Assembly: GCF_029910655.1 (NCBI RefSeq)
Contig: NZ_CP123897.1
Span: forward strand, 310,001-374,000
Direction of reading: 5' to 3'
Length of the DNA stretch: 64,000 nucleotides
Source of the DNA: Methylomonas sp. UP202
Lineage (GTDB): Bacteria; Pseudomonadota; Gammaproteobacteria; Methylococcales; Methylomonadaceae
How positions within the stretch are numbered: the first letter of the stretch is position 1; each line of letters begins with the position of its first letter. The position numbers were made by a program, and so were the translations under genes. Shown here piece after piece: positions 43,888 through 59,535 of the stretch. The notes under the pieces are model-generated. The model was not told the DNA's origin. It did no database searches and saw only the letters and a program-made list of their open reading frames with translations.

Positions 43888-46800
43888 ATGCCAGTCCGCT
43901 CAGTTTTGACGCCGCTCGATGTATTTTTTACCGTTTTATTGGTGGCGTTGCTAGGCGCGGTGATCTTTTTGACGCCGGTCGACATACCGGATGGCTTTCC
44001 ATTCCGGGCCGAGGCCATACCGACGTCTAAGTTGGTCAAGGCGGCGCATCCGTCGGCGGCGACGTTCGCCGATCGGACCTGGGAGTCGGGGTTAATGTTT
44101 TCCCATCAACAAGGCGACGAACATCTGGCCGGCATCGACGAGTCTTTAGGTTCGGGAGCGTGCGCGGCGGATTTTAATAACGACGGCTATGTGGACTTGT
44201 TTCTGGTGAACGGCTCCGGGCAAACCCGTTATTACGGCAAAGCGTATTGGTGGCAACAGGCCGAGGGTAATGCGCTTTTTTTGAATGAAGGCGGTCGTTT
44301 TAGAAATGCCACCGAAGAGAGCGGATTGGTCAGGACAATCTGGGGTATGGGCTGTTTGGCGGTTGATTTGGATAACGATGGCAACACCGATTTATTGGTG
44401 ACCGGCAAAGACGGCAACCTGCTCTACCGCAATAGCGGCGCGGGGCGTTTCGTCGACGTGACGGCCGATGCCGGGTTTGCCGGCGACGGGTGGGCGACGT
44501 CGGCCGCGGCGGCCGACTTTAACCGCGACGGTCTGTTGGACCTCTACGTCGGCCAATTCGTCGATTTCGAGAAAGGTAAGAAAACCTTCGAAGCCAACAG
44601 CCAATTTGTCGGCGAAAAAAAAGGCGTGTTCGACGCTAGTCTGTATCCGGCGCTACCCAACCGTCTGTATTTGAACGACGGCGGCTTTAAATTCCGGGAA
44701 ATCGCCGAGGTCGCGGGAGTTCGGGATGCCGACGGCCGCACCCTGGATGTGAGCTGGCAAGATTTGGATAGCGATGGTTGGCCGGATTTGTTGGTGAGTA
44801 ACGATCGCGGCACCGGCTCTAACAGCGCTTATCTGAACCGGAGTGGTGAGCGGTTCGAAGCCGGAGGCCAAGCCTTGGGCTTGCGGTCGGCGTTGGGCAA
44901 TCGCGGCATCGCCTCCGGTGACTTGGATGGCGATGGGCGTGGCGATCTGGCGGTGGCCAGCGCCGCCGGTGAAAATACGGTTGCGTTAATCCGGGAAACG
45001 GCGGCGGATGGGAGCGAGCATTTTAAGGATAAGGCCAAGGAAAACGGCATCGGCGCCAATCGCTATCTCAGTCTGTCCGGTTGGTCGCCGTTGATTCACG
45101 ATTTCAATAACGATGGGTTTGACGACCTGCTTCTGGCCGCCGGACATTTGGAGCCCGATCCCGACACCGCCCGAATCAGCCAAGGGCAAGCCAAACAACT
45201 TTGGCTAAACGACGGCAACGGTCAATTTGTAGACGCGGGTAGCGAAGCGGGTTTGGCTCTGAAAGACGCTCAGTCGGCGCGCGGCGCGGTGGCTGCGGAC
45301 TTCGACAACGATGGGGATATCGACGTCTACGTCAGTCATAACAACGATTTGGGCCAGTTTTTAGCGAACGAGTCGCCGCCTCGGCATTGGTTGGGCTTGA
45401 AATTGGTCGGCGAAAAATCCAACCGCGATGCAGTCGGCGCGGTCGTCCGTGCGTATGCGGCCGAACGAGTTCGAATCAAATCGGTGCTTAGCGGCGAAGG
45501 ATTTTTGTCCGATAGCGACAAGCGTTTGGTGTTTGGGTTGGGAGACACCGCTACGGTCGAAAGATTGGAAATCGCGTGGCCGAGCGGCCTTCGCCAGACT
45601 CTGCATCCAACCGCTATCGATCGTTATTGGTTGATACGCGAGGGGAGCGACGAACTCGTCGCATTGGGCGGAGCCCAATCCGGCCCACCGGTGCGGCCGC
45701 AACTGAGATTGAAATTGGGGGCCGACCGTCCGGAACTGCGGATTCGCTATTTGCACCTGCTAGAGCATCGCCAGTCCGAAGCCGATATTTGGCCGGAATT
45801 GACGGCCGGCGCGCGAGATCCGGAGCCAGCGGTGCGACGCGCGGCTATCGATATCGCGGCTCGGGCCGGCAATGGGCGGGGATTAGGCCTACTGATCCAG
45901 GCCCTGGAAGATTCCGAGCCCGCCAATTCGGTCGCTGCGGTCGCCGGCCTGCGAAGTCTCGAGGACGAAGCGTCGGTGCGCTGGCTGCTCAGGGCGTTCT
46001 CGCGGGAGAGCGCCGAGGTCAAAATCGCACTCGCCGATACCTTTGCCTATTTCTTTCAGGAAGAAGAGGCGGTGGTTTACCGCAAGTATTTGGCGGTGCC
46101 GTATTTGATTCGCCTGCTGGAGGACGCCGAGCCGAGCGTGCGCGTCGCCGCCTCGCGGGCCTTGGCGAATGCCGAGCGCTTCAGGGGGGTGCATGCCTTG
46201 CTTGCCGGCTTGAGCGACAGCGATGCCTCTGTCCGGGCGGAATTCGTCCGCGCCTTGGGATTGATAAGGCAGACCGAGGCTAGTCCAAAACTGGCTAAGC
46301 TACTAACCGATGAAACGCAGGAATCACAGGTTGTCGCCAATGTGTTCGTAGCTTTGAAGCGATTGGGCGATACGGAAAATGCCGGCAGATTGTCGGATTA
46401 CATTGGTGGACGTGGCGATTTCTCGGGCTTGGCGCAAGACAAGCGGTTGGCGACGCTCGAATGTTTGCTGGCGCTTGGCGACGAAGCGGCGGTATTTAAT
46501 GCCGATGAAATCAATTCGTTGGTTCGAGAAAGTTTCGGGCGAACGAAGCCGACGGAAACCGCGTTGCGCGCGCGTTGGATTTCTATTTGGCGGTATGTGG
46601 CCGACCCGGCGGGTTCGGCTTGGTTGGTGGCTCAAACCAGGGCCGCCGAAGCGGATATCCGTGCAAGGGCTTTCTCGGCGCTATCGACTCAAAACCCTCG
46701 CGACACCGAGTTGTTGCGACAAGCCTGGCGCGACCCGGACGAGTCGATTCGCCGATGGGCGCTCATCGAGCTTCTGAAGCGAAAAATCGACCTGGCGCGA

Positions 46801-47340
46801 GAGGAGTATCAGTCGATTTTGAAGAATTCGGACTGGCGAGAAGTGGCTGTGGATGCCTGGATGGAGCAGGGTTTGCCCGGAGATTCGTCGCGCTTGTTGG
46901 AGGCGCTGTCGGCGGTGTTTCCAATGGCCGGCAAACCGGCGACATTGGCATCGGTTTGCGGCAACTCCGACATGCGAATTCAAGCGCTTTGCCCGGTATT
47001 GTTGCTCGCCGATTCGAACGCCGAAAGCCGTCGGCTTGCCGGGCAATTGTTAGCAGACCGTTCGACGGCCTTATCCTTACGTCAGGCGGTATTGGCGCGG
47101 TTGACGCCGGTCTTCGAGCCGGATGCGCTGAATGTCGTGTTTGCTCTGGCTCAGGCCAAAAAAGATCCGTTACGCCACGCGGCAATAGAGAAGTTGTTGA
47201 CGTTTGATGGGGAGTCGTTGGTCGCCTTTGCGCGGAAAATCGCCGACAATCCTAGCGAAGACTCTGAAATTCGATTCCTGGCCGTCGAGTTTTTACTGCG
47301 CAACGGTGATCAGGCTGCGCTGGACATACTGTACAGATAA
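43888..47340 (+). CDS. Anchored FG-GAP/ASPIC protein with C-terminal HEAT repeats
   Basis: A 1150-residue protein with an N-terminal anchor helix (about 10-32) and a large periplasmic or surface body. Seven calcium-type FG-GAP/VCBS motifs of the DxNxDGxxDL form (DFNNDGYVDLF, DLDNDGNTDLL, DFNRDGLLDLY, DLDSDGWPDLL, DLDGDGRGDLA, DFNNDGFDDLL, DFDNDGDIDVY) indicate a seven-bladed propeller over about 60-500. An ASPIC/UnbV domain (about 505-580) has GAVVRAYAAERVRIKSVLSG. About 640-1150 is a chain of HEAT-type helical repeats. It lies 18 bases before a five-heme cytochrome gene, so a joint redox or surface-complex role is likely. No enzyme motif is seen. Confidence 0.82.
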   Translation: MPVRSVLTPLDVFFTVLLVALLGAVIFLTPVDIPDGFPFRAEAIPTSKLVKAAHPSAATFADRTWESGLMFSHQQGDEHLAGIDESLGSGACAADFNNDGYVDLFLVNGSGQTRYYGKAYWWQQAEGNALFLNEGGRFRNATEESGLVRTIWGMGCLAVDLDNDGNTDLLVTGKDGNLLYRNSGAGRFVDVTADAGFAGDGWATSAAAADFNRDGLLDLYVGQFVDFEKGKKTFEANSQFVGEKKGVFDASLYPALPNRLYLNDGGFKFREIAEVAGVRDADGRTLDVSWQDLDSDGWPDLLVSNDRGTGSNSAYLNRSGERFEAGGQALGLRSALGNRGIASGDLDGDGRGDLAVASAAGENTVALIRETAADGSEHFKDKAKENGIGANRYLSLSGWSPLIHDFNNDGFDDLLLAAGHLEPDPDTARISQGQAKQLWLNDGNGQFVDAGSEAGLALKDAQSARGAVAADFDNDGDIDVYVSHNNDLGQFLANESPPRHWLGLKLVGEKSNRDAVGAVVRAYAAERVRIKSVLSGEGFLSDSDKRLVFGLGDTATVERLEIAWPSGLRQTLHPTAIDRYWLIREGSDELVALGGAQSGPPVRPQLRLKLGADRPELRIRYLHLLEHRQSEADIWPELTAGARDPEPAVRRAAIDIAARAGNGRGLGLLIQALEDSEPANSVAAVAGLRSLEDEASVRWLLRAFSRESAEVKIALADTFAYFFQEEEAVVYRKYLAVPYLIRLLEDAEPSVRVAASRALANAERFRGVHALLAGLSDSDASVRAEFVRALGLIRQTEASPKLAKLLTDETQESQVVANVFVALKRLGDTENAGRLSDYIGGRGDFSGLAQDKRLATLECLLALGDEAAVFNADEINSLVRESFGRTKPTETALRARWISIWRYVADPAGSAWLVAQTRAAEADIRARAFSALSTQNPRDTELLRQAWRDPDESIRRWALIELLKRKIDLAREEYQSILKNSDWREVAVDAWMEQGLPGDSSRLLEALSAVFPMAGKPATLASVCGNSDMRIQALCPVLLLADSNAESRRLAGQLLADRSTALSLRQAVLARLTPVFEPDALNVVFALAQAKKDPLRHAAIEKLLTFDGESLVAFARKIADNPSEDSEIRFLAVEFLLRNGDQAALDILYR

Positions 47341-47358: not shown

Positions 47359-49395
47359 ATGAACGTTTCGAATAGCCAAATGATCGCCGAGCGACGCTTC
47401 GCCCGGCCCTTGGTCGCCGCGACGGCTGTGTTGGCGTTGAGCGGATATATCAGTTGGTGCTGGCCTGGGTTCTCGGTAACCGAGCAATGGCTGTATTTGC
47501 TGCATACCTTGTTGGGCCTGGTGGTCGCGGCGTTGCTGGCGCCATATTTGATCTTGCATTTTCGGCGCACGATAGGTCTCAGACGCTCCTGGATTGCGTT
47601 TTCCGGCATCTTGACCGCGCTGCTGTTTTTGGCGCTTGCGCTGACCGGAGTTCAGATTGCTTGGCAAGGCCAGTCGGAAGCCGGACGCTGGATTTTCGAA
47701 TCCCACGTAGGCTTGTCGGTCGGTGTGTTGCTAATGACGCTCGGACATGTGTCGTTTCATGCGGTGTCTTTGCCGGAACGCAGAAAAAGAAACGAACCTA
47801 GCCGATTTCCCTCGCTAATCGGCGGAATGACAAAGGCGGTCATCGGCTCGGTGGTTGTCGCGGCGATAGCGGTGCTGGTGGCTAGCGCGGCTTATCAATG
47901 GCGCACAAGCCCTTATCGGGACGCGCCGGCCGTCGAGCCTTATCTCTACAGCTACGGCGAACATCCTTTTCGGCCCAGTCAAACCGAGACCAGTACCGGC
48001 GGTTTTTTCGATCCCCGGCGGATAGGGGCTTCCGAGCGGTGTGCCAGTTGTCATCGCGAGATCGCGGAACAGTGGAAGGCATCGATTCATTCCCAGGCCG
48101 CTTCCGACAAAACCTACCAAACCAATATCAAGCTGCTTTCAGAGCGCAAAAACATGGAAGCCACCCGCTATTGCGAAGGCTGCCACGCGCCGGCGGCATT
48201 GTTGAGCGGACAACTAACCACGGGCGGTAAGCTTGATACGCCAGGCCATCTGCAGGAAGGCGTCAGTTGCATGACTTGTCATGGCATCGAGCGCATTGAG
48301 CACTTAAAAGGCGTTGCCAGTTATCGATTCGCGCCGCCTCAGCCTTATTTGTTCGACGGCGCCGAGCGAGCGCTGCCGGTGTTTTTGCATAATCTGCTGA
48401 TTCGCTTGAAACCCGAGCAGCACAGGGCCGATTTGGCCAGAAATGTGTTGTCGACGCCGGAAATGTGTGCGACGTGCCATGCTCAGTTTATGGACAAGGA
48501 TTTTAATAACTGGGGTTGGGTGAAAATGCAGGACGATTACACGGCTTGGCTGAACGGACCGTATTCCGGCCAAACCCGACAGACTTTCGCTCATGCGCAA
48601 CAACGCCGCTGTCAGGATTGCCATTTTCCGTTACAGCCGGGTAGCGACCCTTCCGCGAGTAGCAGCGGATTGATCAAGACCCATTTCAACGTCGGAGCCA
48701 ACACGGCCATTCCCTGGGTGACTCGAAATCAGGCGCAACTTGAGCGAACGCGTCGGTTTTTGACGGCCGATCAAGTCAGGATCACTATTGACAAGCCGAA
48801 TCGTAGTGACGCCGTTGAAAGCGCCCGTCATGTCGACCCGGCCTTGATCGCGTCTTCCGAGGCGCCGGCGTATTGCTACTTGGGCGAAGCCGTGACCTTG
48901 AAAGTCGCGGTGACTAATGCCCAAGTCGGTCATGCCTTTCCCGGTGGAACTACCGATATCAACGAAGCGTGGATACACTTTCTGGTTAAAGACGGTCAGG
49001 GCCGGACGGTCTACGAATCCGGACAATTGGATGCCGGCAACAATGTCGAACCGGCCGCGTATTTTTACCGCTCCATTCCAATCGATCGGATCGGCAACGC
49101 GGTTTGGCGCCACGACTTGTTCAACATGGTCGGCGACAGTTTCAAGCGCATCATTCCGCCTGGCGGTACCGATGTGACGAGCTACGTATTCAACGTGCCG
49201 GACGACATTAAAGGGCCACTAACCATCACGGCCGGCGTCAATTACCGCAAATTGAATAACCGTTATGCGCGTTGGGCGTTGAAGGATGAGCAAGTCGAGC
49301 TGCCCATCGTGGAAATGGCTTCGACATCGCTGGTTTTACCGGTGCGGATTAAACCGGAAGTGGTGAATAACCTCCAAGTCGATTCCGGCCGGTAA
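47359..49395 (+). CDS. Membrane-bound pentaheme cytochrome c
   Basis: A 678-residue protein. The first 195 residues contain about five helices. His pairs in helices 2 and 4 (LLHTLLG with LILHF; ESHVG with LGHVSFH) could ligate heme b as in b-type membrane cytochromes. The periplasmic part carries five CxxCH heme c sites at residues 228, 272, 304, 370 and 418 (CASCH, CEGCH, CMTCH, CATCH, CQDCH), spaced as in cytochrome c554-like proteins. A beta-rich C-terminal third (about 470-678) follows. The topology suggests electron transfer between the quinone pool and periplasmic c-hemes. It forms an operon with the propeller/HEAT protein. The acceptor is unknown. Confidence 0.85.
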   Translation: MNVSNSQMIAERRFARPLVAATAVLALSGYISWCWPGFSVTEQWLYLLHTLLGLVVAALLAPYLILHFRRTIGLRRSWIAFSGILTALLFLALALTGVQIAWQGQSEAGRWIFESHVGLSVGVLLMTLGHVSFHAVSLPERRKRNEPSRFPSLIGGMTKAVIGSVVVAAIAVLVASAAYQWRTSPYRDAPAVEPYLYSYGEHPFRPSQTETSTGGFFDPRRIGASERCASCHREIAEQWKASIHSQAASDKTYQTNIKLLSERKNMEATRYCEGCHAPAALLSGQLTTGGKLDTPGHLQEGVSCMTCHGIERIEHLKGVASYRFAPPQPYLFDGAERALPVFLHNLLIRLKPEQHRADLARNVLSTPEMCATCHAQFMDKDFNNWGWVKMQDDYTAWLNGPYSGQTRQTFAHAQQRRCQDCHFPLQPGSDPSASSSGLIKTHFNVGANTAIPWVTRNQAQLERTRRFLTADQVRITIDKPNRSDAVESARHVDPALIASSEAPAYCYLGEAVTLKVAVTNAQVGHAFPGGTTDINEAWIHFLVKDGQGRTVYESGQLDAGNNVEPAAYFYRSIPIDRIGNAVWRHDLFNMVGDSFKRIIPPGGTDVTSYVFNVPDDIKGPLTITAGVNYRKLNNRYARWALKDEQVELPIVEMASTSLVLPVRIKPEVVNNLQVDSGR

Positions 49396-49563: not shown

Positions 49564-50214
49564 ATGCTGAAAACACGCCTATTCTTTTCAAGCTTAATAC
49601 TCGCGGCATTGAGTTCCGCCAACCCTGCGGTGGCCGGCACCATCGTGAATGGCAGTTTTGACAACGATCTCTCCGGTTGGGCGGCATTGACCAGCGGAGG
49701 GAGTGCGCAATGGGAAGCCGGCGCCGCCGTTTTAGCGGGTGGACAAGGCGCAAATCCGTTCGCGGCCAGTCTGGTGCAAGGCGATGACGGTAGTTTTAGT
49801 TTTACTTCACCGATCATCCTTAGTGCCGGTAACGACTGGTTAAAGTTTGATGTCAGTTTCACTTCGCTAGGCGTTGATGCGCTGGAGACCCCAAGCGGAT
49901 TTACCGACAATTTGACGCTTACCTTATACGACGCGGACGATATTACGGGCGCCAGCGATGCGTTGATCGCATCAATCGATTCGACGACCGTTGGAGTGGC
50001 CTCTATCGCTTTCGACCTGTCGGCGTTTATCGGTCGATCCGTCGCGTTTTCCTTCGAGTTTAACGACGAGAACGATGGTTTCGATTATTCGGCGGCCATA
50101 GACAACGTGCGTTTTGAAGCCAGTCCGGTACCCGTGCCGCCGTCGGTTTTATTCGAGGCTACAGCACTAGCCGGTTTCGCGGTTGCCTCTATCCGCCGCC
50201 GCAGAAACGCTTGA
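49564..50214 (+). CDS. Exported protein with PEP-CTERM-like sorting tail
   Basis: A 216-residue protein from the ATG at 49564 (AGGA upstream; the frame extends to 49504 without good signals). The signal peptide ends near PAVAG. The body is a beta-sandwich type (IVNGSFDNDLSGW start, DYSAAIDNVRFE end), as in many carbohydrate-binding-like PEP-CTERM proteins. The C-terminus PVPVPPSVLF, hydrophobic helix and RRRRNA form a variant VPxPP tripartite tail that exosortase-type enzymes recognise. No exosortase is in the window. The upstream 168 bases are AT-rich and likely hold the promoter. Confidence 0.8.
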   Translation: MLKTRLFFSSLILAALSSANPAVAGTIVNGSFDNDLSGWAALTSGGSAQWEAGAAVLAGGQGANPFAASLVQGDDGSFSFTSPIILSAGNDWLKFDVSFTSLGVDALETPSGFTDNLTLTLYDADDITGASDALIASIDSTTVGVASIAFDLSAFIGRSVAFSFEFNDENDGFDYSAAIDNVRFEASPVPVPPSVLFEATALAGFAVASIRRRRNA

Positions 50215-50408: not shown

Positions 50409-53400
50409 ATGTCGCCGAGCCAGCGAGCGATCAAGTCGAAAGTGGAGCTTGATCCAAATACGCCGATTCTAAAGTCAGGCGAGAAGATGACCGCAAATTC
50501 GGCAGTCTGGCTGTTGTTGCCTTTGCTCGTGCTGTCTTTTTTTTCCAAAACGGCTTTGAGCGTCGCGGCGACGAACTGGGAACCTGTCTCGTCCAGTCAA
50601 GTGACGGTGAAGGTAGCCAACCCGGTGCGCAACCGGCGTGCGGCGGACGCGACGGTGGCGGTGACGCTGAACAACGTCAGCGGCCAAAGCCTGAAAGGCC
50701 CGTTCCGGCTGGTCATCGTCGGCCTGAGTCCGGCGGCGAAAGTGGCTATCGGCAACGCCAGCGGCACCACCGCGGCCGGCGAAGCCTACTACGACCTGAT
50801 TGGCTATCTCGGCAACGACTTCACGCCCGGCGGCAGCGGTCTGGTCTCGGTCATCGTCACCGGCGGCGGCCCCAATACCTTCAGCTTCACGACCCGGCTG
50901 GAACGCCAAGTGCAAAGCCCAGCGCTGGCCGTCAAAATCACCAGCCCGGCCACGCTCTTGACCGTCGGCCACACCCCGCAAACCGTCAAAGGCACCGTCA
51001 ACGACCCCAGCGCCCAAGTCACCCTGAACGGCGCGCCGGTCACCCACGGCAACGGCAGCTTTCAAGCCGACGTCGCACTGGAAGAAGGCCACAACACCAT
51101 CACCGCTCGGGCGGTCAACGCCCAGGGCGAAGACGTCAGCGACACCATCTCGCTATCGCTGGACATGACCCCGCCCTACCTGACCGTCGAATCGCCGAAA
51201 AATGGCGACACCGTGCGCACCGACCACATCGCCGTGTCCGGCCTGATCAACGACATCGTACGCGGCACCGTCGCCGCCGGCCAAGCCAACGTCAAAGTCA
51301 ACGGCATCGCCGCCACGATCGCCAACCGCAGCTATCTGGCCCAAAACATCCCGCTCGCCGTCGGCACCAACACCCTCAAAATCGACGCCGCCGACAACGT
51401 CGGCAACACCAGCAGCCTCAGCCTGCAAGTCAGCTACCAACCGCTGGCGCCGCAACACATCGAACTGCTCGGCGGCCAAAACCAAAGCGGCAAGATCAAC
51501 AGCGTGCTGGCCCAAACCCTCAAAGTCAAACTGCTGGACGGCGCCAACCAAGCGGTCGCCGGCAAACCCGTGATCTTCCGCGTCACCGAAGGCGACGGCA
51601 TCGTCGGCGCCGGCAACAGCGACCAAGGCCAAGGCGTCCTGGTTCAAACCGACGCCCAAGGCATCGCCGCCACCGCCTTCAAACTCGGTAGCCGAGCCGG
51701 CAGCGGCAACCAACGGGTCCGCGCCACCTCGGTCGGCTTCGACGGCGAAGCCCTGTTTTATGCCAGCGCCACAGTCGGGGCCGGCGGCAAAGTCACCGTC
51801 AACAGCGGCAACAACCAACGCGGCGCGGTCGGCCAAGCGCTGCCGCTACCCTTCGTCGTCGCCGTGGTCGACGACGGCGCCAACGTCGTGCCCGGCGCCC
51901 AAATAGAATTCAAAGTCACCCAAGGCAGCGGCCGCTTCCAAAACGGCCAAACCACGCTGACCGCCACCACCGACAGCGACGGGCGGGCCACCGCCGAATT
52001 CACGCTCGGCAGCGAAGACGGCCTCGACGTCCACCGCGTCACCGCCACCCTGGTTGGCACCAGCCTCTACGCCGGCTTCACCGCCTCCGCGCTAAAAACC
52101 GGCAACGCCGGCCAAACCAGCATCAGCGGCGTCGTGCTCGACAACCAAGAACACCCACTGCCGAACGTCACCGTCCGAGTCGACGGCACCACCCGCGAAG
52201 CACAAACCGACGCCCAAGGCCAATTCAAAATCAGCGAAGTCCCGGTCGGCGCGGTACGCCTGGTCGCCGACGGCAGCACCACCAGCGCCGAAGGCGAATG
52301 GCCCACGCTCGCCTTCAACCTCGTCACCATCGCCGGTGCCGACAACCCGCTATCGGCGCCGGTCTACCTGGTCAAACTCGACACCGTCAACGCCAAAACC
52401 GTCGGCGACCAAGACGTCACGCTGACCCTGCCCGACGTGCCCGGCTTCGCGTTGGAAGTCAAACGCGGCTCGGTCACCTTCCCGGACGGCAAGAAGACCG
52501 GCAAGCTCTCGGTCACTCCGGTCAACGCCAGCAAAATCCCGATGGCGCCGCCCAACGGCATGCAACCGCAATTTATCGTCACCATCCAACCGGTCGGGGC
52601 CAAATTCGACCCGCCGGCCCGACTGACCCTGCCCAACGTCGACGGCCACAAACCCGGCGCGCAAGTGGAAATGTACTCCTACGACCACGACCTGGAAGAA
52701 TTCGTAGCGATCGGCCTCGGCACCGTCAGCACCGACGGCAGCATCATTAAATCCAATGACGGCGTGGGAGTAATTAAGGCAGGCTGGCATTGTGGCAGTC
52801 AACCGGGCGGGAGCGGGTGTGCGGCCAGTCCGGGGGAATGTCAAAAATGCGAGGGCAATTGTGTCATCGTCGATTTACCCAAGGTGCCGAACGTGGCGGG
52901 CGATTGCTTGAAACCCAAGGATTGCAAGTCCTCGGAAGCCGACCCGAGCGACGTTCCGGCTGATGTTGCCGGCGATTGTAAAAAGCCCGCTTGCCCGTCT
53001 CCAACCGTGGATACCAGCGACAAGCCGTCCGAGGAATGTAAACAATGTCAATCCGACGGCTCGATCGGTAACAAACCGGATGGTCAGTTTCCCGAGTCGA
53101 CGACGCGCTGTTGCTATCAAGGTGAATCGGTGCCGAAAACGCCGGCCGATTTTGCAAGCTTGGCGAAGTGCCCTCAAAAAACGCAGAACACCACACGAAA
53201 TCATGAAATCGACGGTTGCTCCAATTCGCCCGACGACTTGGAGAGTTGGGACAACCTGCCGTTCGCCACGAATTACGACATGTACGTGACTAATCCGATC
53301 TGGGGTACCGTGTTGGGCACGATTTCCAATGCGACTGCCGCGACCCAGACCTTGCCGTGCAATTTGCACGACATTTGTTATCAAACCTGCGGCTCCAGCC

Positions 53401-53618
53401 AAGCTACTTGCGATGCCGCCTTAGGCGCCGGAATTACCGCGAGTTGCGATACCGGTTACCCCTTCCCTTGTCCTTATGCAACGGCGTCGCAATGTCTGGA
53501 ATACGATGAGGAATACGCGAGTTGTCGTGGTATCGGTCCGGTCTATCAAGACGGGGTTGCCAATTTCGGTAGCTCGGCTTTTGAAGAACGGCAAACTCAG
53601 TATTGCGAGTGTTGCTAA
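50409..53618 (+). CDS. Exported Ig-like protein with phospholipase A2-like C-terminal domain
   Basis: A 1069-residue candidate polymorphic-toxin protein. The ATG at 50409 has AAGGAG upstream; an inner ATG at 50487 starts directly at the signal helix. The order is an N-terminal beta domain (about 54-160), two Ig-like domains resembling Glucodextran_B (about 175-345), two Big_1-like domains (about 350-565), a carboxypeptidase-regulatory-like domain (about 570-630), a beta region ending at WHCG (about 793) and a Cys-rich linker. The tip (about 930-1069) has PCNLHDICYQTC then TCDAAL, matching the His-Asp pair and Cys framework of prokaryotic and fungal phospholipase A2 (His987, Asp988, later Asp near 1002). 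The first 830 residues match the paralogue at 55115. Toxicity is inference. Confidence 0.78.
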   Translation: MSPSQRAIKSKVELDPNTPILKSGEKMTANSAVWLLLPLLVLSFFSKTALSVAATNWEPVSSSQVTVKVANPVRNRRAADATVAVTLNNVSGQSLKGPFRLVIVGLSPAAKVAIGNASGTTAAGEAYYDLIGYLGNDFTPGGSGLVSVIVTGGGPNTFSFTTRLERQVQSPALAVKITSPATLLTVGHTPQTVKGTVNDPSAQVTLNGAPVTHGNGSFQADVALEEGHNTITARAVNAQGEDVSDTISLSLDMTPPYLTVESPKNGDTVRTDHIAVSGLINDIVRGTVAAGQANVKVNGIAATIANRSYLAQNIPLAVGTNTLKIDAADNVGNTSSLSLQVSYQPLAPQHIELLGGQNQSGKINSVLAQTLKVKLLDGANQAVAGKPVIFRVTEGDGIVGAGNSDQGQGVLVQTDAQGIAATAFKLGSRAGSGNQRVRATSVGFDGEALFYASATVGAGGKVTVNSGNNQRGAVGQALPLPFVVAVVDDGANVVPGAQIEFKVTQGSGRFQNGQTTLTATTDSDGRATAEFTLGSEDGLDVHRVTATLVGTSLYAGFTASALKTGNAGQTSISGVVLDNQEHPLPNVTVRVDGTTREAQTDAQGQFKISEVPVGAVRLVADGSTTSAEGEWPTLAFNLVTIAGADNPLSAPVYLVKLDTVNAKTVGDQDVTLTLPDVPGFALEVKRGSVTFPDGKKTGKLSVTPVNASKIPMAPPNGMQPQFIVTIQPVGAKFDPPARLTLPNVDGHKPGAQVEMYSYDHDLEEFVAIGLGTVSTDGSIIKSNDGVGVIKAGWHCGSQPGGSGCAASPGECQKCEGNCVIVDLPKVPNVAGDCLKPKDCKSSEADPSDVPADVAGDCKKPACPSPTVDTSDKPSEECKQCQSDGSIGNKPDGQFPESTTRCCYQGESVPKTPADFASLAKCPQKTQNTTRNHEIDGCSNSPDDLESWDNLPFATNYDMYVTNPIWGTVLGTISNATAATQTLPCNLHDICYQTCGSSQATCDAALGAGITASCDTGYPFPCPYATASQCLEYDEEYASCRGIGPVYQDGVANFGSSAFEERQTQYCECC
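50565..52823 (+). repeat. Core repeat copy A (2,259 bases)
   Basis: Matches 55250-57508 without any gap at a constant offset of 4,685 bases. Differences are scattered substitutions, mostly synonymous, before about 51.6 kb and again after about 52.7 kb. Between those points I saw none. It encodes the shared Ig-like region and ends where the C-terminal domains diverge. Confidence 0.95.
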
Positions 53619-53623
53619 GCGCC

Positions 53624-54853
53624 ATGAAAACGATTAGCTGGAGAATCTTTTTAGTGCTGGCGGTGATGCTGCGAATCGAACTCGCGGCGGCAGACGTCAA
53701 AGTCTTCGAGTCATTATTTGCTAGGTATCAGGCAAATATCGATCAACAGTTTATTCGAATGATTCCGGAGGACGCGGATTCCCCTGCGATCCTGTATAAA
53801 AAATATCTGGATCACCGCAAGGCAAAAGCGCTTCCAGGCCAGGCTGAAAGCGTCGAATATTTAATCTATGATAGCCGCGCCGGTAAATCGAGTAGTTTAT
53901 GGGAAGCGAGAGCGGCCGATAAAACCGTCGTGGGCAAGATCGTCAAGAGAGATGACGGATATCTGATACCTTTGCTGAACGGAAAAGATCTCAAGATATT
54001 TAAATACAGTCCAAAGCAACAAAAACTTGAATCGGTAAATTTGAAGCCGTTCGGTGTTAAGGCCGGTAATTCAGTCAAGCAACTTTTTCACATTTCTACC
54101 GGTTATATTGCCTTGGTTGACGCGGAAAAAACTTCAAAATTGGTTTTCCAGGCCTATGGCTCCGATGAGCAATTGTCCGTGGATTTTGCCTACCTCCAAT
54201 TGCCGATCGTCGGAATAGAGGATGTTGCGGAGGCTAATGATACGATCTACATCGCAGCTAAGGCGAAAAAGAATTTGGATGAAGCAGCTAGCTTTCTTTT
54301 TAGAGTTAATAACAAGTTTGCGGCGGACAGCGTAAAAGTGGAAGGATTGGATGTCGATCCGAGATTAGCGCAGCATGCGTCGTTTATATCGACGACGCAT
54401 GTTCAGCCCTCGCTACAAATAGTCAGTCGTAAGCGAAACCCTAGTCCGCCAAGTTTGTACTTGTATCGTGTTGGAGAGAAGGCCAAATTGATTTGGCATT
54501 TCGACTTCGATGAAATCGAAGCCGGGAGTCATTTGCAGATATCTGGAATTTGTCATGATAATTACCTGTTCGCAAGGCGAACAAAGCCAAACGGTAAAAT
54601 TTCCGACACCGCTGAATTCAGATTACTGAATGCAGAGGGAAAGGAGTTGATGACTTGGACGAAGCAAATGATGACTAACGGATCACTGATTGATGTTCGG
54701 CCTGAATCGATTGGACAAAGCGTTTTCTTAGTCAGCAATTTTTCAAAACTGGAAGATGCTCGCCGGCAGGACGGTTGGTACAGTTGGATGGGATTACAGA
54801 TTGATAGAGTGCCGGTTTCAGAAGTATGTGCTCCCAATCAAAAGGTTAATTGA
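53624..54853 (+). CDS. Exported protein following the PLA2-like gene
   Basis: A 409-residue protein starting 5 bases after the preceding stop. The signal peptide is residues 1-23 (MKTISWRIFLVLAVMLRIELAAA). The remainder is soluble, beta-rich and without recognised domain motifs, and only a few Cys are present (SGICHD, SEVCAPN). Base composition is clearly more AT-rich than the core repeat upstream. Position and export make it the obvious candidate for an immunity or accessory protein to the phospholipase-like tip, which would act on membranes from the periplasm. This is inference from layout; no known immunity family is recognised. Confidence 0.6.
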   Translation: MKTISWRIFLVLAVMLRIELAAADVKVFESLFARYQANIDQQFIRMIPEDADSPAILYKKYLDHRKAKALPGQAESVEYLIYDSRAGKSSSLWEARAADKTVVGKIVKRDDGYLIPLLNGKDLKIFKYSPKQQKLESVNLKPFGVKAGNSVKQLFHISTGYIALVDAEKTSKLVFQAYGSDEQLSVDFAYLQLPIVGIEDVAEANDTIYIAAKAKKNLDEAASFLFRVNNKFAADSVKVEGLDVDPRLAQHASFISTTHVQPSLQIVSRKRNPSPPSLYLYRVGEKAKLIWHFDFDEIEAGSHLQISGICHDNYLFARRTKPNGKISDTAEFRLLNAEGKELMTWTKQMMTNGSLIDVRPESIGQSVFLVSNFSKLEDARRQDGWYSWMGLQIDRVPVSEVCAPNQKVN

Positions 54854-54881
54854 AACAGTATTTCCGGCTCTTAAGGAGCCT

Positions 54882-55052
54882 ATGGCTAATGCAGTTTTTC
54901 AAGAAATTCAGGTGTGCAAGGTATTGATTGAAGCTGAAATTCGACATGACGAATTAATCAGAGGCTTCTTAAGGTTTCAAGGTCTAAAATTTAGCGAAGA
55001 AGTTAGATTTAAAGTGCAGGATTTGATAATGCTTTCCGCGACATTAATTTAG
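54882..55052 (+). CDS. Small protein (56 residues) between the two cassettes
   Basis: From the ATG at 54882 with AAGGAG three bases upstream; the frame extends to 54756 inside the previous gene. The product is helical and charged, with no signal peptide, so cytosolic (EIQVCKVLIEAEIRHDELIRG). It is AT-rich. It may be a remnant of an immunity or regulatory gene. The family is unknown and it could be a chance frame. Confidence 0.4.
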   Translation: MANAVFQEIQVCKVLIEAEIRHDELIRGFLRFQGLKFSEEVRFKVQDLIMLSATLI

Positions 55053-55114
55053 CTTGAAGTTATTTAGGCAGGTTGCGAGGAATGACAAGTGATTAGAATT
55101 TTTCGGGGGTACTG

Positions 55115-58054
55115 ATGTCGGTTTTTTGGCACGTATTGAGTAATACGATATCGAGAAAGTTAGTTGGCCAAGTTCGCGGTTCCGTATTGGTTAACTTTAT
55201 AATGGTTCTGTCGGTAGTCTTAATTAGCTGGATCACCCCCCCGGCGGAAGCGGCGACGAACTGGGAACCAGTCTCGACCAGCCAAGTGACGGTGAAGGTA
55301 GCCAACCCGGTGCGCAACCGACGTGCGGCGGACGCGACGGTGGCGGTGACGCTGAACAACGTCAGCGGCCAAAGCCTGAAAGGCCCGTTCCGGCTGGTCA
55401 TCGTCGGCCTGAGTCCGGCGGCGAAAGTGGCTATCGGCAACGCCAGCGGCACCACCGCGGCCGGCGAAGCCTACTACGACCTGACCGGCTATCTCGGCAA
55501 CGACATCACGCCCGGCGGCAGCGGTCTGGTCTCGGTCATCGTCACCGGCGGCGGCCCCAATACCTTCAGCTTCACGACCCGGCTGGAACGCCAAGTGCAA
55601 AGCCCAGCGCTGGCCGTCAAAATCACCAGCCCGGCCACGCTCTTAACCGTCGGCCACACCCCGCAAACCGTCAAAGGCACCGTCAACGACCCCAGTGCCC
55701 AAGTCACCCTGAACGGCGCGCCGGTCACTCACGGCAACGGCAGCTTTCAAGCCGACGTCGCACTGGAAGAAGGCCACAACACCATCACCGCACGGGCGGT
55801 CAACGCCCAGGGCGAAGACGTTAGCGACACCATCTCGCTATCGCTGGACATGACCCCGCCCTACCTGACCGTCGAATCGCCGAAAAACGGCGACACCGTC
55901 CGCACCGACCACATCGCCGTGTCCGGCCTGATCAACGACATCGTACGCGGCACCGTCGCCGCCGGCCAAGCCAACGTCAAAGTCAACGGCATCGCCGCCA
56001 CGATCGCCAACCGCAGCTACCTGGCCCAAAACATCCCGCTCGCCGTCGGCACCAACACCCTCAAAATCGACGCCGCCGACAACGTCGGCAACACCAGCAG
56101 CCTCAGCCTGCAAGTCAGCTACCAACCACTGGCGCCGCAACACATCGAACTGCTCGGCGGCCAAAACCAAAGCGGCAAGATCAACAGCGTGCTGGCCCAA
56201 ACCCTCAAAGTCAAACTGCTGGACGGCGCAAACCAAGCGGTCGCGGGCAAACCTGTCATCTTCCGCGTCACCGAAGGCGACGGCATCGTCGGCGCCGGCA
56301 ACAGCGACCAAGGCCAAGGCGTCCTGGTTCAAACCGACGCCCAAGGCATCGCCGCCACCGCCTTCAAACTCGGTAGCCGAGCCGGCAGCGGCAACCAACG
56401 GGTCCGCGCCACCTCGGTCGGCTTCGACGGCGAAGCCCTGTTTTATGCCAGCGCCACAGTCGGGGCCGGCGGCAAAGTCACCGTCAACAGCGGCAACAAC
56501 CAACGCGGCGCGGTCGGCCAAGCGCTGCCGCTACCCTTCGTCGTCGCCGTGGTCGACGACGGCGCCAACGTCGTGCCCGGCGCCCAAATAGAATTCAAAG
56601 TCACCCAAGGCAGCGGCCGCTTCCAAAACGGCCAAACCACGCTGACCGCCACCACCGACAGCGACGGGCGGGCCACCGCCGAATTCACGCTCGGCAGCGA
56701 AGACGGCCTCGACGTCCACCGCGTCACCGCCACCCTGGTTGGCACCAGCCTCTACGCCGGCTTCACCGCCTCCGCGCTAAAAACCGGCAACGCCGGCCAA
56801 ACCAGCATCAGCGGCGTCGTGCTCGACAACCAAGAACACCCACTGCCGAACGTCACCGTCCGAGTCGACGGCACCACCCGCGAAGCACAAACCGACGCCC
56901 AAGGCCAATTCAAAATCAGCGAAGTCCCGGTCGGCGCGGTACGCCTGGTCGCCGACGGCAGCACCACCAGCGCCGAAGGCGAATGGCCCACGCTCGCCTT
57001 CAACCTCGTCACCATCGCCGGTGCCGACAACCCGCTATCGGCGCCGGTCTACCTGGTCAAACTCGACACCGTCAACGCCAAAACCGTCGGCGACCAAGAC
57101 GTCACGCTGACCCTGCCCGACGTGCCCGGCTTCGCGTTGGAAGTCAAACGCGGCTCGGTCACCTTCCCGGACGGCAAGAAGACCGGCAAGCTCTCGGTCA
57201 CTCCGGTCAACGCCAGCAAAATCCCGATGGCGCCGCCCAACGGCATGCAACCGCAATTTATCGTCACCATCCAACCGGTCGGGGCCAAATTCGACCCGCC
57301 GGCCCGACTGACCCTGCCCAACGTCGACGGCCACAAACCCGGCGCGCAAGTGGAAATGTACTCCTACGACCACGACCTGGAAGAATTCGTAGCGATTGGG
57401 TTAGGGACGGTCAGCACCGACGGCAGCATCATTAAATCCAATGACGGCGTGGGAGTGATTAAGGCGGGCTGGCATTGCGGCAGTCAACCGGGGGGCAGTG
57501 GTTGCGCATATTCCGCGGAATGCCAGACTTGTAGCGGAAACTGCCAGCTAAGCAATAAGCCGGATGGGCAAATTCCCGGCGCTGCAAAATGTACTTTGTG
57601 CAGCAGTGGAAGCAAAGTACCACCAAAAACGGAAGCAGAGTGTTGCGCCGACGATACAGTATCGAATCATCCAGTCTCGGACCCAAATACGAATGGCTGG
57701 GTAGACTGTTGCAACGGGTCAAAAATCGTTTGCAACAAGCCATATGCTAATACCTATCCTCTTCACGATTTGTTGACTCAATGTGATAAAGAACACGAGG
57801 CACAGCATTTTGGAGATATTGACTGTCCTACCGGTGCAGATGAATGTAAAACGTCTAGACCTTTCTTTAAGCCCGGGCGAGATCCTGCCGATGGGGAGTG
57901 CGATGCATATAAGGTATCAGTGAATTGTTTGAATGCTTATAACTGCGGCGGAGATGCCACGTGTCAGCAAAACATTAATTTTTATGTGAATCAGTATAAA
58001 GGAATTGCAAACGGAAAAACGGATGCGGCTGGTAAGCCTAAATGTTTTCCATGA
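55115..58054 (+). CDS. Exported Ig-like protein with HEAQH metallopeptidase-like C-terminal domain
   Basis: A 979-residue paralogue of the protein at 50409. The different N-terminus has a signal helix (about 22-47, ending PPAEA), then the same beta, Ig-like, Big_1-like and carboxypeptidase-regulatory-like order up to WHCGSQPGGSGC. The tip (about 800-979) is unrelated to the first copy and Cys-rich. It holds KEHEAQHF (His894, Glu895, His898), an HExxH zinc-protease signature, and GECDAYK (Glu928), a plausible third ligand. The C-x-AYK...CL context recalls small HExxH domains at the ends of secreted toxins. The linker shares NKPDGQ with the first copy. A toxic protease function is inferred, not shown. 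Confidence 0.76.
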   Translation: MSVFWHVLSNTISRKLVGQVRGSVLVNFIMVLSVVLISWITPPAEAATNWEPVSTSQVTVKVANPVRNRRAADATVAVTLNNVSGQSLKGPFRLVIVGLSPAAKVAIGNASGTTAAGEAYYDLTGYLGNDITPGGSGLVSVIVTGGGPNTFSFTTRLERQVQSPALAVKITSPATLLTVGHTPQTVKGTVNDPSAQVTLNGAPVTHGNGSFQADVALEEGHNTITARAVNAQGEDVSDTISLSLDMTPPYLTVESPKNGDTVRTDHIAVSGLINDIVRGTVAAGQANVKVNGIAATIANRSYLAQNIPLAVGTNTLKIDAADNVGNTSSLSLQVSYQPLAPQHIELLGGQNQSGKINSVLAQTLKVKLLDGANQAVAGKPVIFRVTEGDGIVGAGNSDQGQGVLVQTDAQGIAATAFKLGSRAGSGNQRVRATSVGFDGEALFYASATVGAGGKVTVNSGNNQRGAVGQALPLPFVVAVVDDGANVVPGAQIEFKVTQGSGRFQNGQTTLTATTDSDGRATAEFTLGSEDGLDVHRVTATLVGTSLYAGFTASALKTGNAGQTSISGVVLDNQEHPLPNVTVRVDGTTREAQTDAQGQFKISEVPVGAVRLVADGSTTSAEGEWPTLAFNLVTIAGADNPLSAPVYLVKLDTVNAKTVGDQDVTLTLPDVPGFALEVKRGSVTFPDGKKTGKLSVTPVNASKIPMAPPNGMQPQFIVTIQPVGAKFDPPARLTLPNVDGHKPGAQVEMYSYDHDLEEFVAIGLGTVSTDGSIIKSNDGVGVIKAGWHCGSQPGGSGCAYSAECQTCSGNCQLSNKPDGQIPGAAKCTLCSSGSKVPPKTEAECCADDTVSNHPVSDPNTNGWVDCCNGSKIVCNKPYANTYPLHDLLTQCDKEHEAQHFGDIDCPTGADECKTSRPFFKPGRDPADGECDAYKVSVNCLNAYNCGGDATCQQNINFYVNQYKGIANGKTDAAGKPKCFP
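55250..57508 (+). repeat. Core repeat copy B (2,259 bases)
   Basis: Direct repeat of 50565-52823 in the same orientation. Homologous recombination between the copies would remove exactly 4,685 bases and join the first N-terminus to the second C-terminal domain without shifting frame. Confidence 0.95.
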
Positions 58055-58089
58055 CTTTATGTGAAGCTTAATTTTATGGAGAAATTAAA

Positions 58090-58404
58090 ATGAATTTTAA
58101 GGTGCTGTTATTTCTATGCTTTGGGTTCTTTGGCTTTAATGCTGCTGCGTCAGCGGAAGAGTGCTCTTTGCCTCTTACTGATCAACAAATAAAGGATATT
58201 GTTGATCAGGAGAGGTTAAAAAGATCTGATTTACCAAGGTCGTTTGATAAACAAGGCTGGCGTGTAACAAAAAAAGGATGTTATTACCTATACATGGAAA
58301 GCTATGAGCCTGAAATTCCAGATGTTTTTCATGTTTTTCGTATAAATCGAAATGGTTTGATTGTTGATGTTATTGATGGTCAAGCAAAAATACTACCGCC
58401 TTAA
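58090..58404 (+). CDS. Small exported protein, candidate immunity protein 1
   Basis: A 104-residue protein with a signal peptide (about 1-22, ending AASAEE), GGAG upstream, 35 bases after the HEAQH gene. The mature part has two Cys (ECSLP and KGCYYLY), likely a disulfide. It shares RSDLP, a following Phe, RV, C-x-YLY and the closing G-x-x-V with the next gene, so the two are paralogues from a tandem duplication. It is strongly AT-rich. The location suggests protection from, or assistance to, the upstream tip domain. No family recognised. Confidence 0.68.
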   Translation: MNFKVLLFLCFGFFGFNAAASAEECSLPLTDQQIKDIVDQERLKRSDLPRSFDKQGWRVTKKGCYYLYMESYEPEIPDVFHVFRINRNGLIVDVIDGQAKILPP

Positions 58405-58419
58405 ATTCCCGAGGTTGCC

Positions 58420-58731
58420 ATGAAATTTTTTTGTTTTCTACGATTTTTGGCTTTGTTGTTGATTCTATTGGTAAATACAGCGATTGCGGAGGGGGCGATA
58501 GATTGTCCGGAAAAAGTATTTACAGAACAGGAGTTGACTGTGGTGGTTAAACAATTGAGGGAAAGCCGAAGCGACTTGCCGCAAGCGTTTAAACGTCCTT
58601 TGGTGAGAGTTAGCAGGCTAAGATGTTTGTATTTGTATTTTGAATACAACGATTCTGATTTTTCGAATAATTATAATGTTTTTACATTTGATCCGTACGG
58701 CGAGTTGGTGGAGTTTTCGGTAACTAACTAG
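58420..58731 (+). CDS. Small exported protein, candidate immunity protein 2
   Basis: A 103-residue paralogue of the preceding gene, 15 bases downstream with GAGG before the ATG. The signal peptide is about 1-23. Common features are FTEQEL/LTDQQI, RSDLP, RV and RCLYLY, with Cys in AIDCPEK and RCLYLY. Divergence is much greater than in the core repeats, as expected for immunity-type genes kept for different specificities. Function is inferred from layout. Confidence 0.68.
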   Translation: MKFFCFLRFLALLLILLVNTAIAEGAIDCPEKVFTEQELTVVVKQLRESRSDLPQAFKRPLVRVSRLRCLYLYFEYNDSDFSNNYNVFTFDPYGELVEFSVTN

Positions 58732-58779
58732 AATGTTGGGGTCTGTTTTAAGTTTGGTTGAATTGTTATATGTAATTTA

Positions 58780-59535
58780 ATGAAAATATTGAATCAGTTG
58801 AAGGTTAAAGTTTTTTTTGTTGTTTTAATTTTTATATCGTTTTTAACGTTAGGCAATGCCGACGAAAAATGGGTTGCGGACGAAATATTCACGCAAATGT
58901 CCGAGATGCGTAAGGAAATTGGCTCGCTGAAAGGAAGAGTGGCTGACCTTGAGCAAAAACTTACCGAAAGCAAGCCCAAATTGATTCCAATACCGCTGGT
59001 TGGAAATGAGTCGATGACTTTAGGCAAAGCCGACGCTACGATTGCGATCTTGGAGTTTTCTGATTACGAATGCCCATTTTGCGGAAAGCATTACAAAAAC
59101 GTTTTCCCCAAACTGCGCGAAAGTTATATCGATAAAGGCAAGGTTAAATACGTGATGAAGGATTTTCCGCTGGATTTCCACGCTCATGCCAAAAAGGCCT
59201 CGTTGGCCGCGCGTTGCGCGGGCGAGCAGAAGCAATACTGGGCGATGCATGATGCAATTTTCGAGGCCCGCGGGCAGGCTAGCGACGAATTAATTGCCAG
59301 CGTTGCGCAACAACACAAATTGGATGAATCCGCATTGAAGAAGTGTCTTGACGACCCGGCGCAATTGATAAAGGTACAGAACGACATCGCGCTTGGCAGT
59401 CGTTTGGGCGTTAACGGTACGCCTGCGTTCTTAATTGGGCGGATCAAGGATAAACAGTTAGTCGATTACCGGCGCTTCGACGGCATGCAGTCGTTCGAAA
59501 CCTTCGTCGCCGCGATCGACAGTTTAAAAAAGTAA
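58780..59535 (+). CDS. DsbA-family thiol:disulfide oxidoreductase
   Basis: A 251-residue exported thioredoxin-fold protein. The signal or anchor helix is about 8-26. A coiled-coil stretch (about 35-62, MSEMRKEIGSLKGRVADLEQ) may dimerise it. The DsbA-like domain has EFSDYECPFCGKHY with active-site CPFC, and the cis-Pro loop GVNGTPAFLIG. Such proteins make or isomerise disulfides in the periplasm. The genes just upstream encode Cys-rich tips and two-Cys small proteins, so it is a likely dedicated folding helper. It resembles the DSBA/Com1-like group rather than E. coli DsbA. Confidence 0.88.
   Translation: MKILNQLKVKVFFVVLIFISFLTLGNADEKWVADEIFTQMSEMRKEIGSLKGRVADLEQKLTESKPKLIPIPLVGNESMTLGKADATIAILEFSDYECPFCGKHYKNVFPKLRESYIDKGKVKYVMKDFPLDFHAHAKKASLAARCAGEQKQYWAMHDAIFEARGQASDELIASVAQQHKLDESALKKCLDDPAQLIKVQNDIALGSRLGVNGTPAFLIGRIKDKQLVDYRRFDGMQSFETFVAAIDSLKK

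Follow-up and report, generated by a model that had tools for sequence, protein, structure and literature searches.

Exchangeable Cysteine-Rich Tips on a Constant Exported Stalk: A Putative Polymorphic Toxin System in Methylomonas and Its Relatives

The Locus and Its Two Carriers

The stretch of DNA analyzed here (the window) comprises 64,000 nucleotides (nt) of Methylomonas sp. UP202, positions 310001-374000 of contig C1; the genome totals 5.68 Mb in two contigs, and its closest matches among named records come from Methylomonas koyamae and others assigned to Methylomonas or Methylococcaceae. The window holds two neighboring genes for exported proteins, here called carriers, each composed of a signal peptide, a long immunoglobulin (Ig)-like stalk, and a cysteine (Cys)-rich C-terminal domain, or tip. 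An earlier note on this DNA had described two adjacent exported proteins sharing about 750 residues before ending in unrelated domains. Both open reading frames (ORFs) are present, with a shared stalk of 751 amino acids (aa) that differs at 3 positions. Their parts are as follows:

50409..53618, + strand: carrier 1, 1069 aa; signal peptide, Ig-like/CarboxypepD stalk, Cys-rich linker, PLA2-like tip
50568..52820, + strand: stalk of carrier 1, ATNWEP to GWHCGSQPGGSGC, 751 aa; Cys-free before GWHCG
52782..53618, + strand: tip 1, Cys-rich linker and phospholipase A2 (PLA2)-like domain, core at about 53190-53615, with CNxHDxCY
55115..58054, + strand: carrier 2, 979 aa; different signal peptide, near-identical stalk, HEAQH tip
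55253..57505, + strand: stalk of carrier 2, ATNWEP to GWHCGSQPGGSGC, 751 aa
57467..58054, + strand: tip 2, Cys-rich, with HExxH...E and 20 Cys; candidate metallopeptidase

From ATNWEP to GWHCGSQPGGSGC, 748 of 751 residues are identical in the two stalks; at the nucleotide level 34 of 2253 positions differ, and one run of approximately 1.14 kb contains no difference at all, suggesting recent gene conversion. Directly after GWHCGSQPGGSGC, the carriers diverge completely. Since the signal-peptide regions upstream of ATNWEP are also unlike, only the stalk appears to have been homogenized. The stalk matches the Pfam models Glucodextran_B and CarboxypepD_reg, with Big_1 below the cut-off, and over both carriers the Pfam scan returned only Ig-like, CarboxypepD, macroglobulin-type, and PLA2 matches. 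No known trafficking module was found in the window carriers by Pfam and NCBIfam scans; specifically, neither carrier matched a two-partner secretion domain, haemagglutinin repeats, or a PAAR-type model in Pfam. The GC content drops stepwise from 65% in the stalks to 55 and 47% in the tips and 45, 36, and 38% in the next genes, in keeping with the earlier description of the latter as AT-rich.

The two tips are only 22% identical in a forced global alignment and contain 26 (tip 1) and 20 (tip 2) Cys. Tip 1 matches the Pfam model PLA2G12 (E 5e-5; 23.7 bits, under the cut-off of 34), and its profile found just two matches in the PDB up to an E-value of 1, both of them phospholipases A2 (E 0.04 and 0.1); these weak but uniform matches back its earlier description as PLA2-like. 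In the active-site segment of this tip family (C-N-x-H-D-x-C-Y), the C, N, H, D, C, and Y are invariant in all eight members. The HEAQH motif previously noticed in tip 2 is likewise present, and in the four members of its family H55, E56, H59, and E89 are invariant, as would fit an HExxH motif with a downstream Glu as third ligand. In the best model of tip 2, the HExxH motif ends one helix and the Glu sits in the next. Tip 2 is, on these sequence features, a probable zinc peptidase.

Tip Variety on the Shared Stalk

A contig search with the stalk matched 83 stretches, and the 80 best of these, corresponding to 78 distinct loci, were retained; because only these best matches were kept, the locus and carrier counts given below are not a census. 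Carriers were extracted from these loci and from those of related genomes by requiring the motif G[WY]H[CGS] behind a GVG-like context, so that the invariance of GWHCG in alignment A1 is partly built in. Among the 78 loci, two have motif variants (L063, WFC; L070, WHA), two fail the context rule despite the motif (L074, L088), and one is truncated (L038). The extraction yielded 83 carrier ORFs with 82 distinct tips, and several phyla are represented. Family counts refer to the 75 complete tips, the other seven (L003a, L035a, L056a, L060a, L067a, L075a, and L082a) being open or shorter than 90 aa. By C-terminal BLAST, the 75 tips form 31 families, and hhalign merges only families 2 and 17 (92% probability) and 3 and 18 (90%).

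Tips have been exchanged repeatedly. In carriers of the Methylomonas type (G032 and the L026/L028/L029 relatives set aside), stalk ends are 91-99% identical between loci, and tips of different families share 12-36% in forced alignments. A quick stalk tree of 65 of the 75 carriers, with strong support on 15 of its 61 inner branches, requires at least 42 changes of tip family, or 22 when only families with more than one member are counted. Unlike tips sit on stalks at near-zero distance in the window paralogs, in L098 and L023, and in L100a and L100b. The search that the earlier note had proposed, for further stalk copies with other tips, thus succeeded in the genome, the genus, and beyond, and at each of these levels near-identical stalks bear unrelated tips, the opposite of the strain-invariant tips that it had named as evidence against a toxin system. 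A constant N-terminal region with many unrelated C-terminal domains, one of the defining features of polymorphic toxins, is therefore found here. When 61 related genomes were searched, the stalk gave strong matches in 7 of the 36 that belong to the same genus, the window's own included; weak matches in G006 (43%) and G058 (37%) were not counted as carriers.

At least 8 Cys are present in 72 of the 75 tips; over the final 500 residues of the stalk, the median Cys count is zero (65 carriers). The GC content is below that of the stalk in 56 of 62 tips and 59 of 62 next genes. Pfam matches over the 75 tips comprise PLA2G12 (6), PKD (6), 3D domain (2), RHS (1), and DUF6973 (1), to which NCBIfam adds a lytic-transglycosylase model in two tips and RHS models in one. 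By eye, HExxH-type motifs occur in families 6, 7, 13, and 20. Many tips look all-beta; one was modeled and shows very long strands, with a likeness to outer-membrane barrels that is weak and of a common level. Family 1 has seven of its eight members in Catenovulum, Gayadomonas, and other Alteromonadales.

The stalk is joined to RHS repeats in L055 (Pfam) and, by eye, also in L067 and L070. The earlier statement that no RHS repeats are visible accordingly stands for the window carriers but fails for these relatives. Two loci from SAR324 (L065 and L069) have the order giant protein, carrier, and separate giant gene, the last of RHS type by eye, an arrangement suggesting that stalk protein and RHS may act together in trans. 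Tips with a 3D domain occur in L092 and L082 and may constitute a murein-acting class. The 3D domain occurs in MltA-type lytic enzymes.

The Next Gene Follows the Tip

A candidate next gene lies within 200 nt of 71 of the 75 carriers. Export was judged by a loose hydrophobicity rule rather than by SignalP, and 58 of the 71 next genes pass it. BLAST detects homology between the next genes of 66 of the 137 pairs that share a tip family and of 8 of the 2348 that do not; in 2000 permutations of the labels, the count never exceeded 14 and so stayed below 66 throughout. Splitting the pairs by stalk identity, which could be done for 62 of the 71 loci, separates the influence of the tip from that of the stalk. 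Where stalks are at least 85% identical, next-gene homology is seen in 0 of 56 pairs with different tips and 11 of 15 with the same tip; where stalks are less than 65% identical, it is seen in 17 of 41 pairs of the same tip family and 2 of 996 with different tips; and in the middle bin it is seen in 34 of 62 same-tip and 5 of 721 different-tip pairs. The tip-specific downstream gene that also characterizes polymorphic toxins is thus present.

The candidates in the window are the following:

53624..54853, + strand: candidate exported immunity protein for tip 1, 409 aa; immediately downstream of carrier 1
58090..58404, + strand: candidate exported immunity subunit A for tip 2, 104 aa
58420..58731, + strand: candidate exported immunity subunit B for tip 2, 103 aa; homologous to 58090..58404

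The 409-aa partner of tip 1 has a 38.5% identical homolog behind the PLA2 tip of Methylobacter locus L029. Subunits A and B share 34% over 65 aa, and a homolog of subunit A (47%) stands behind the homologous tip of L021, where the pair of small genes recurs. A short contig, L053, bears two carriers, both with HExxH-type tips; each is followed by one partner of 200-214 aa that, by eye, holds two small immunity-like regions.

The Wider Locus and Its Recurrent Genes

The earlier note had the group close with a DsbA-like gene. This boundary did not hold, as a gene for a 3254-aa protein begins 36 nt further on and conserved partners reach upstream to about 43888. The additional genes are as follows:

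43888..47340, + strand: FG-GAP / UnbV-ASPIC / HEAT-repeat protein, 1150 aa (Pfam); recurrent partner gene
47359..49395, + strand: multihaem c-type cytochrome, 678 aa; five CXXCH, Pfam Cytochrome_C554, hydrophobic N-terminal region
49564..50214, + strand: PEP-CTERM-like exported protein, 216 aa; ends VPVPPSV...RRRRNA (motif by eye)
58780..59535, + strand: DsbA-like thioredoxin, 251 aa; Pfam Thioredoxin_4 and DSBA
59572..69336 (the window ends at 64000), + strand: giant exported LVIVD / Big_5 / TSP3 protein, 3254 aa

Homologs of the FG-GAP/HEAT protein occur in 25, and of the cytochrome in 24, of the 47 relative loci with at least 5.5 kb of upstream sequence; for the cytochrome this includes 22 of the 30 gammaproteobacterial loci. 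Of the 43 relative loci whose downstream sequence spans at least 6.5 kb, 40 contain the giant protein, which precedes the carrier in the SAR324 loci. A di-haem oxidoreductase-like family (Pfam DHOR) is present in 14 of these 43, all betaproteobacterial or acidobacterial bar one unclassified. Where both flanks are covered, 23 of 30 loci have a haem protein of either type. By a simple rule that lets through a few false positives, 30 of 65 carriers have a PEP-CTERM-like gene immediately before them, and in G032 the unit of PEP-CTERM gene, carrier, and next gene is present twice. The product of 49564..50214 has no Pfam or NCBIfam match; its C-terminal end resembles, by eye, a PEP-CTERM motif. The window's genome contains two exosortases.

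Within the genus, the partner genes co-occur with the carrier. Of the 7 carrier genomes, 6 have a cytochrome ortholog (>1100 bits) and 5 the giant gene (>500 bits); none of the remaining 29 genomes has either. No such match was seen for either gene in carrier genome G030, whose assembly is 78% complete, or for the giant gene in G032. Matches far below ortholog level were not counted; these fell in G013, G015, G016, and G038 for the giant gene and in G007, G013, G026, G029, G036, G039, and G060 for the cytochrome.

The giant LVIVD/Ig protein, whose gene extends to about position 379336 of C1, has an internal repeat with a period of about 2.93 kb (976 residues), and at that offset 2089 of 2500 nt are identical in a gap-free comparison. 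Its matches to the cell-cell cohesion protein MtsD and to CglD are weak and far below the cut-off.

A Third, Broken Copy

A third locus of the same genome (L017, C1:4427000-4440000, at about 4.433 Mb) consists of two stalk pieces, the GWHCG junction, and the short remnant of a different tip. An IS66-type transposase adjoins the stalk pieces; exported genes of 192, 383, and 395 aa come next, together with a piece from the beginning of the giant gene. The impression is of a locus reduced by erosion to its antidote genes, and such turnover within one genome favors the polymorphic-toxin reading. The 383-aa gene also occurs, at 92% identity, in M. koyamae R-45383 and has a single weak blastp match to a PLA2-tip partner (E 2.7e-5); by profile, none of the three exported genes matched a known partner family. 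In M. koyamae R-45383 (L025, from about 10165), the carrier's tip frame is interrupted and then followed by the 383-aa gene and, by eye, a 181-aa gene, as in the third locus.

Repeat or assembly duplication was rejected as a source of the architecture, which independent genomes share. Plasmid-borne spread was likewise rejected, as only six plasmid records match the stalk end, all at less than 60% identity.

Interpretation and Alternatives

The locus combines a constant stalk, exchanged tips, a tip-specific next gene, recurrent synteny, and genus-level co-occurrence. Considered together, we judge it likely to be a polymorphic toxin system with extracytoplasmic, exchangeable tips and tip-specific exported immunity proteins, a reading that the exchange of tips and the co-variation of the next gene with the tip support at the level of sequence. 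The carrier family looks like a set of undescribed interbacterial weapons, with interchangeable warheads and matching antidotes. Envelope-acting toxins with exported immunity appear the best reading because PLA2, 3D-domain, and HExxH tips occur and the next genes are mostly exported-looking; the envelope as site of action is suggested by these immunity candidates and by the kind of tip.

In the proposed mechanism, the carrier would leave the cytoplasm by the Sec route, with its Cys-free Ig/carboxypeptidase-regulatory stalk displaying, at the GWHCG junction of the stalk end, a disulfide-rich and exchangeable C-terminal toxin domain. The Cys-rich tip would be oxidized in the periplasm, after which the carrier would be displayed or released. 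The tip, acting in the envelope or outside the cell, may then attack the phospholipids, proteins, or murein of a neighbor's envelope: tip 1 putatively as a phospholipase A2 and tip 2 as a zinc peptidase, with relatives carrying 3D-domain, RHS-linked, or all-beta tips. Tip and next gene would move as a cassette, and the exported product would neutralize the tip in the periplasm of the producer and its siblings. DsbA, the haem proteins, the FG-GAP/HEAT protein, and the giant LVIVD/Ig protein probably fold, mature, display, or deliver the carrier. Toxicity, neutralization, site of action, and disulfide bonding are thus predictions from sequence, and tip identities beyond PLA2 and 3D, like the roles of all other locus genes, are candidate assignments.

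Several observations weigh against a toxin system with exported immunity. Pfam and NCBIfam place most of the 75 tips in no toxin family, no tip matches a defense system in PADLOC, and the model of tip 2 has no confident fold match, leaving its zincin fold unconfirmed. The rule used assigned no next gene to 4 of the 75 carriers: L037, L065, L069, and L022, which lies at a contig end. Of the next genes, 13 of 71 fail the hydrophobicity rule, and the rule itself is passed by 13 of 37 genes outside the locus, in the first 43 kb of the window. Among pairs of the same tip family, no next-gene homology is detectable beyond the 66 of 137, and the 8 pairs from different families do have it. Among 37 genomes searched, the PLA2 partner was found only in the window's own. 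Finally, of the 62 loci with 2.5 kb or more of downstream sequence, just 14 have a DsbA homolog.

The tips might instead be secreted digestive or remodeling enzymes, their variety reflecting diet and the next gene encoding a tip-specific periplasmic foldase; lipases, for instance, have the dedicated foldase Lif. Cys-rich, hydrolase-like tips and a DsbA-like gene within the operon would suit this explanation, and mostly exported-looking next genes are also expected of foldases. We nevertheless regard it as unlikely, given the wholesale and repeated exchange of tips on near-identical stalks and the joining of the stalk to RHS repeats. Furthermore, the exported genes of the third locus persist without an intact carrier, one of them 92% identical in M. 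koyamae R-45383, unlike what would be expected of a foldase without a client, with the caveat that these genes match no known partner family by profile. Rather improbable, in our estimation, is a function in recognition or adhesion, in which the tips would be surface epitopes for self/non-self discrimination or attachment, in the manner of VARTIG proteins (see below), and the giant LVIVD/TSP3 protein an adhesin partner. The many all-beta-looking tips without an enzyme match (one modeled), the PEP-CTERM-like neighbors, and the giant protein's weak, far-below-cut-off resemblance to MtsD and CglD all point in this direction; invariant catalytic-type residues in the PLA2 and HExxH tips, the 3D-domain tips, and the tip-specific next genes argue the other way.

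Least credible is a fast-evolving surface family subject to ordinary domain shuffling, with the link between tip and next gene due to shared ancestry of the whole locus only. Some tip families are indeed found mainly in close relatives, as seen in family 1 with its seven of eight members from Alteromonadales. This very improbable account is largely refuted by next genes that track tips across stalk clades and, in 0 of 56 cases, near-identical stalks with other tips; whole-locus descent as the sole cause of the link is ruled out by the stalk-identity split.

Extending the polymorphic-toxin reading, the whole co-inherited locus might be an undescribed machine for making and presenting envelope toxins, a possibility that we put forward tentatively and hold to be doubtful as it stands. 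Its redox genes (the five-haem membrane cytochrome upstream of the carrier in many Gammaproteobacteria, the di-haem oxidoreductase-like protein in Beta- and Acidobacteria, and DsbA in some) would oxidize and mature the Cys-rich tip or the near-invariant Trp-His-Cys junction, and the FG-GAP/HEAT, PEP-CTERM-like, and giant LVIVD/TSP3/Ig proteins would hold the carrier on the surface for contact delivery, as a new secretion or display route.

If the toxin reading is right, an unrecognized weapon family is spread over many genera, from methane oxidizers to marine Alteromonadales, Massilia, and Acidobacteriota, and the 31 tip families, largely with candidate exported immunity, would provide test pairs for new envelope-targeting activities. 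The locus might also exemplify a link between redox enzymes and toxin maturation, and it would offer a model, open to experiment, of outer-membrane passage by a Sec-exported toxin, a step described as unsolved for MafB (PMC5472700).

Relation to Known Systems

Polymorphic toxins are characterized by a constant N-terminus, an exchangeable C-terminal toxin, and an adjacent immunity gene, and their catalog already includes Tox-PLA2 and several Tox-MPTase (HExxH) classes (PMC3482391, Zhang et al. 2012). The principle is thus known and PLA2 and metallopeptidase tips are already listed; the stalk and locus described here appear to be new. In the portions of PMC3482391 available, no such stalk is named, and the terms periplasm, disulfide, and carboxypeptidase regulatory are absent from the wording. 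The layout is like that of polymorphic toxins in general, including an RHS fusion in a relative of this carrier, whereas the present locus adds haem, FG-GAP/HEAT, PEP-CTERM-like, DsbA, and LVIVD/Ig genes. No description of the stalk or locus was found in the full-text literature searched, which was limited to open-license PMC articles and so constitutes weak evidence.

Among individual systems, MafB/MafI of Neisseria is a Sec-exported polymorphic toxin with immunity genes and spare cassettes in an island (PMC5472700). MafB starts with DUF1020, which is absent from the Pfam matches of both carriers at E-values up to 1, assuming that the model is in the library; the tips here are Cys-rich and apparently envelope-acting and have other neighbors. 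The C-terminal domain of VgrG2b is an antibacterial HExxH metallopeptidase that acts in the periplasm, and the level of its exported immunity protein PA0261 depends on DsbA (PMC6899460); it is therefore a precedent for a periplasmic site of action and for exported, DsbA-dependent immunity. Unlike VgrG2b, which is delivered by the type VI secretion system (T6SS) as a VgrG, tip 2 is small and Cys-rich.

TANFOR toxins carry a Sec signal in about 87% of cases, along with variable C-terminal toxins and downstream immunity genes, and their crossing of the outer membrane is not shown there (PMC7073777). They occur almost exclusively in Bacteroidetes, with proteins secreted by the type IX secretion system (T9SS) enriched nearby, and their tips include nucleases, peptidoglycan hydrolases, and an ADP-ribosylating toxin (PMC7073777). 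No TANFOR-named model was among the Pfam or NCBIfam matches, a result that presupposes such a model in those libraries. Another parallel is VARTIG of the Thermococcales, a large Ig-domain protein with a variable C-terminus and type-specific downstream genes, for which recognition is among the roles proposed (PMC8416519). In VARTIG, the variable part is itself an Ig domain, no toxin was identified, and the distribution is confined to Thermococcales (PMC8416519); the window tips have no Ig match, and PKD/Big_2 segments occur in the tips of a few relatives. Like CdiA/CdiI of contact-dependent inhibition (CDI), the carriers pair an exchangeable, putatively toxic C-terminal domain with cognate candidate immunity. 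They differ from CDI in having no match to two-partner secretion or haemagglutinin repeats and in that their immunity candidates mostly look exported.

A role as T6SS cargo was considered and rejected as unsupported: the carriers start with hydrophobic, signal-like segments, and a PAAR-type match is absent. Homologs of the T6SS sheath protein VipB lie elsewhere in the genome, at G000:C1:440687 and 66066.

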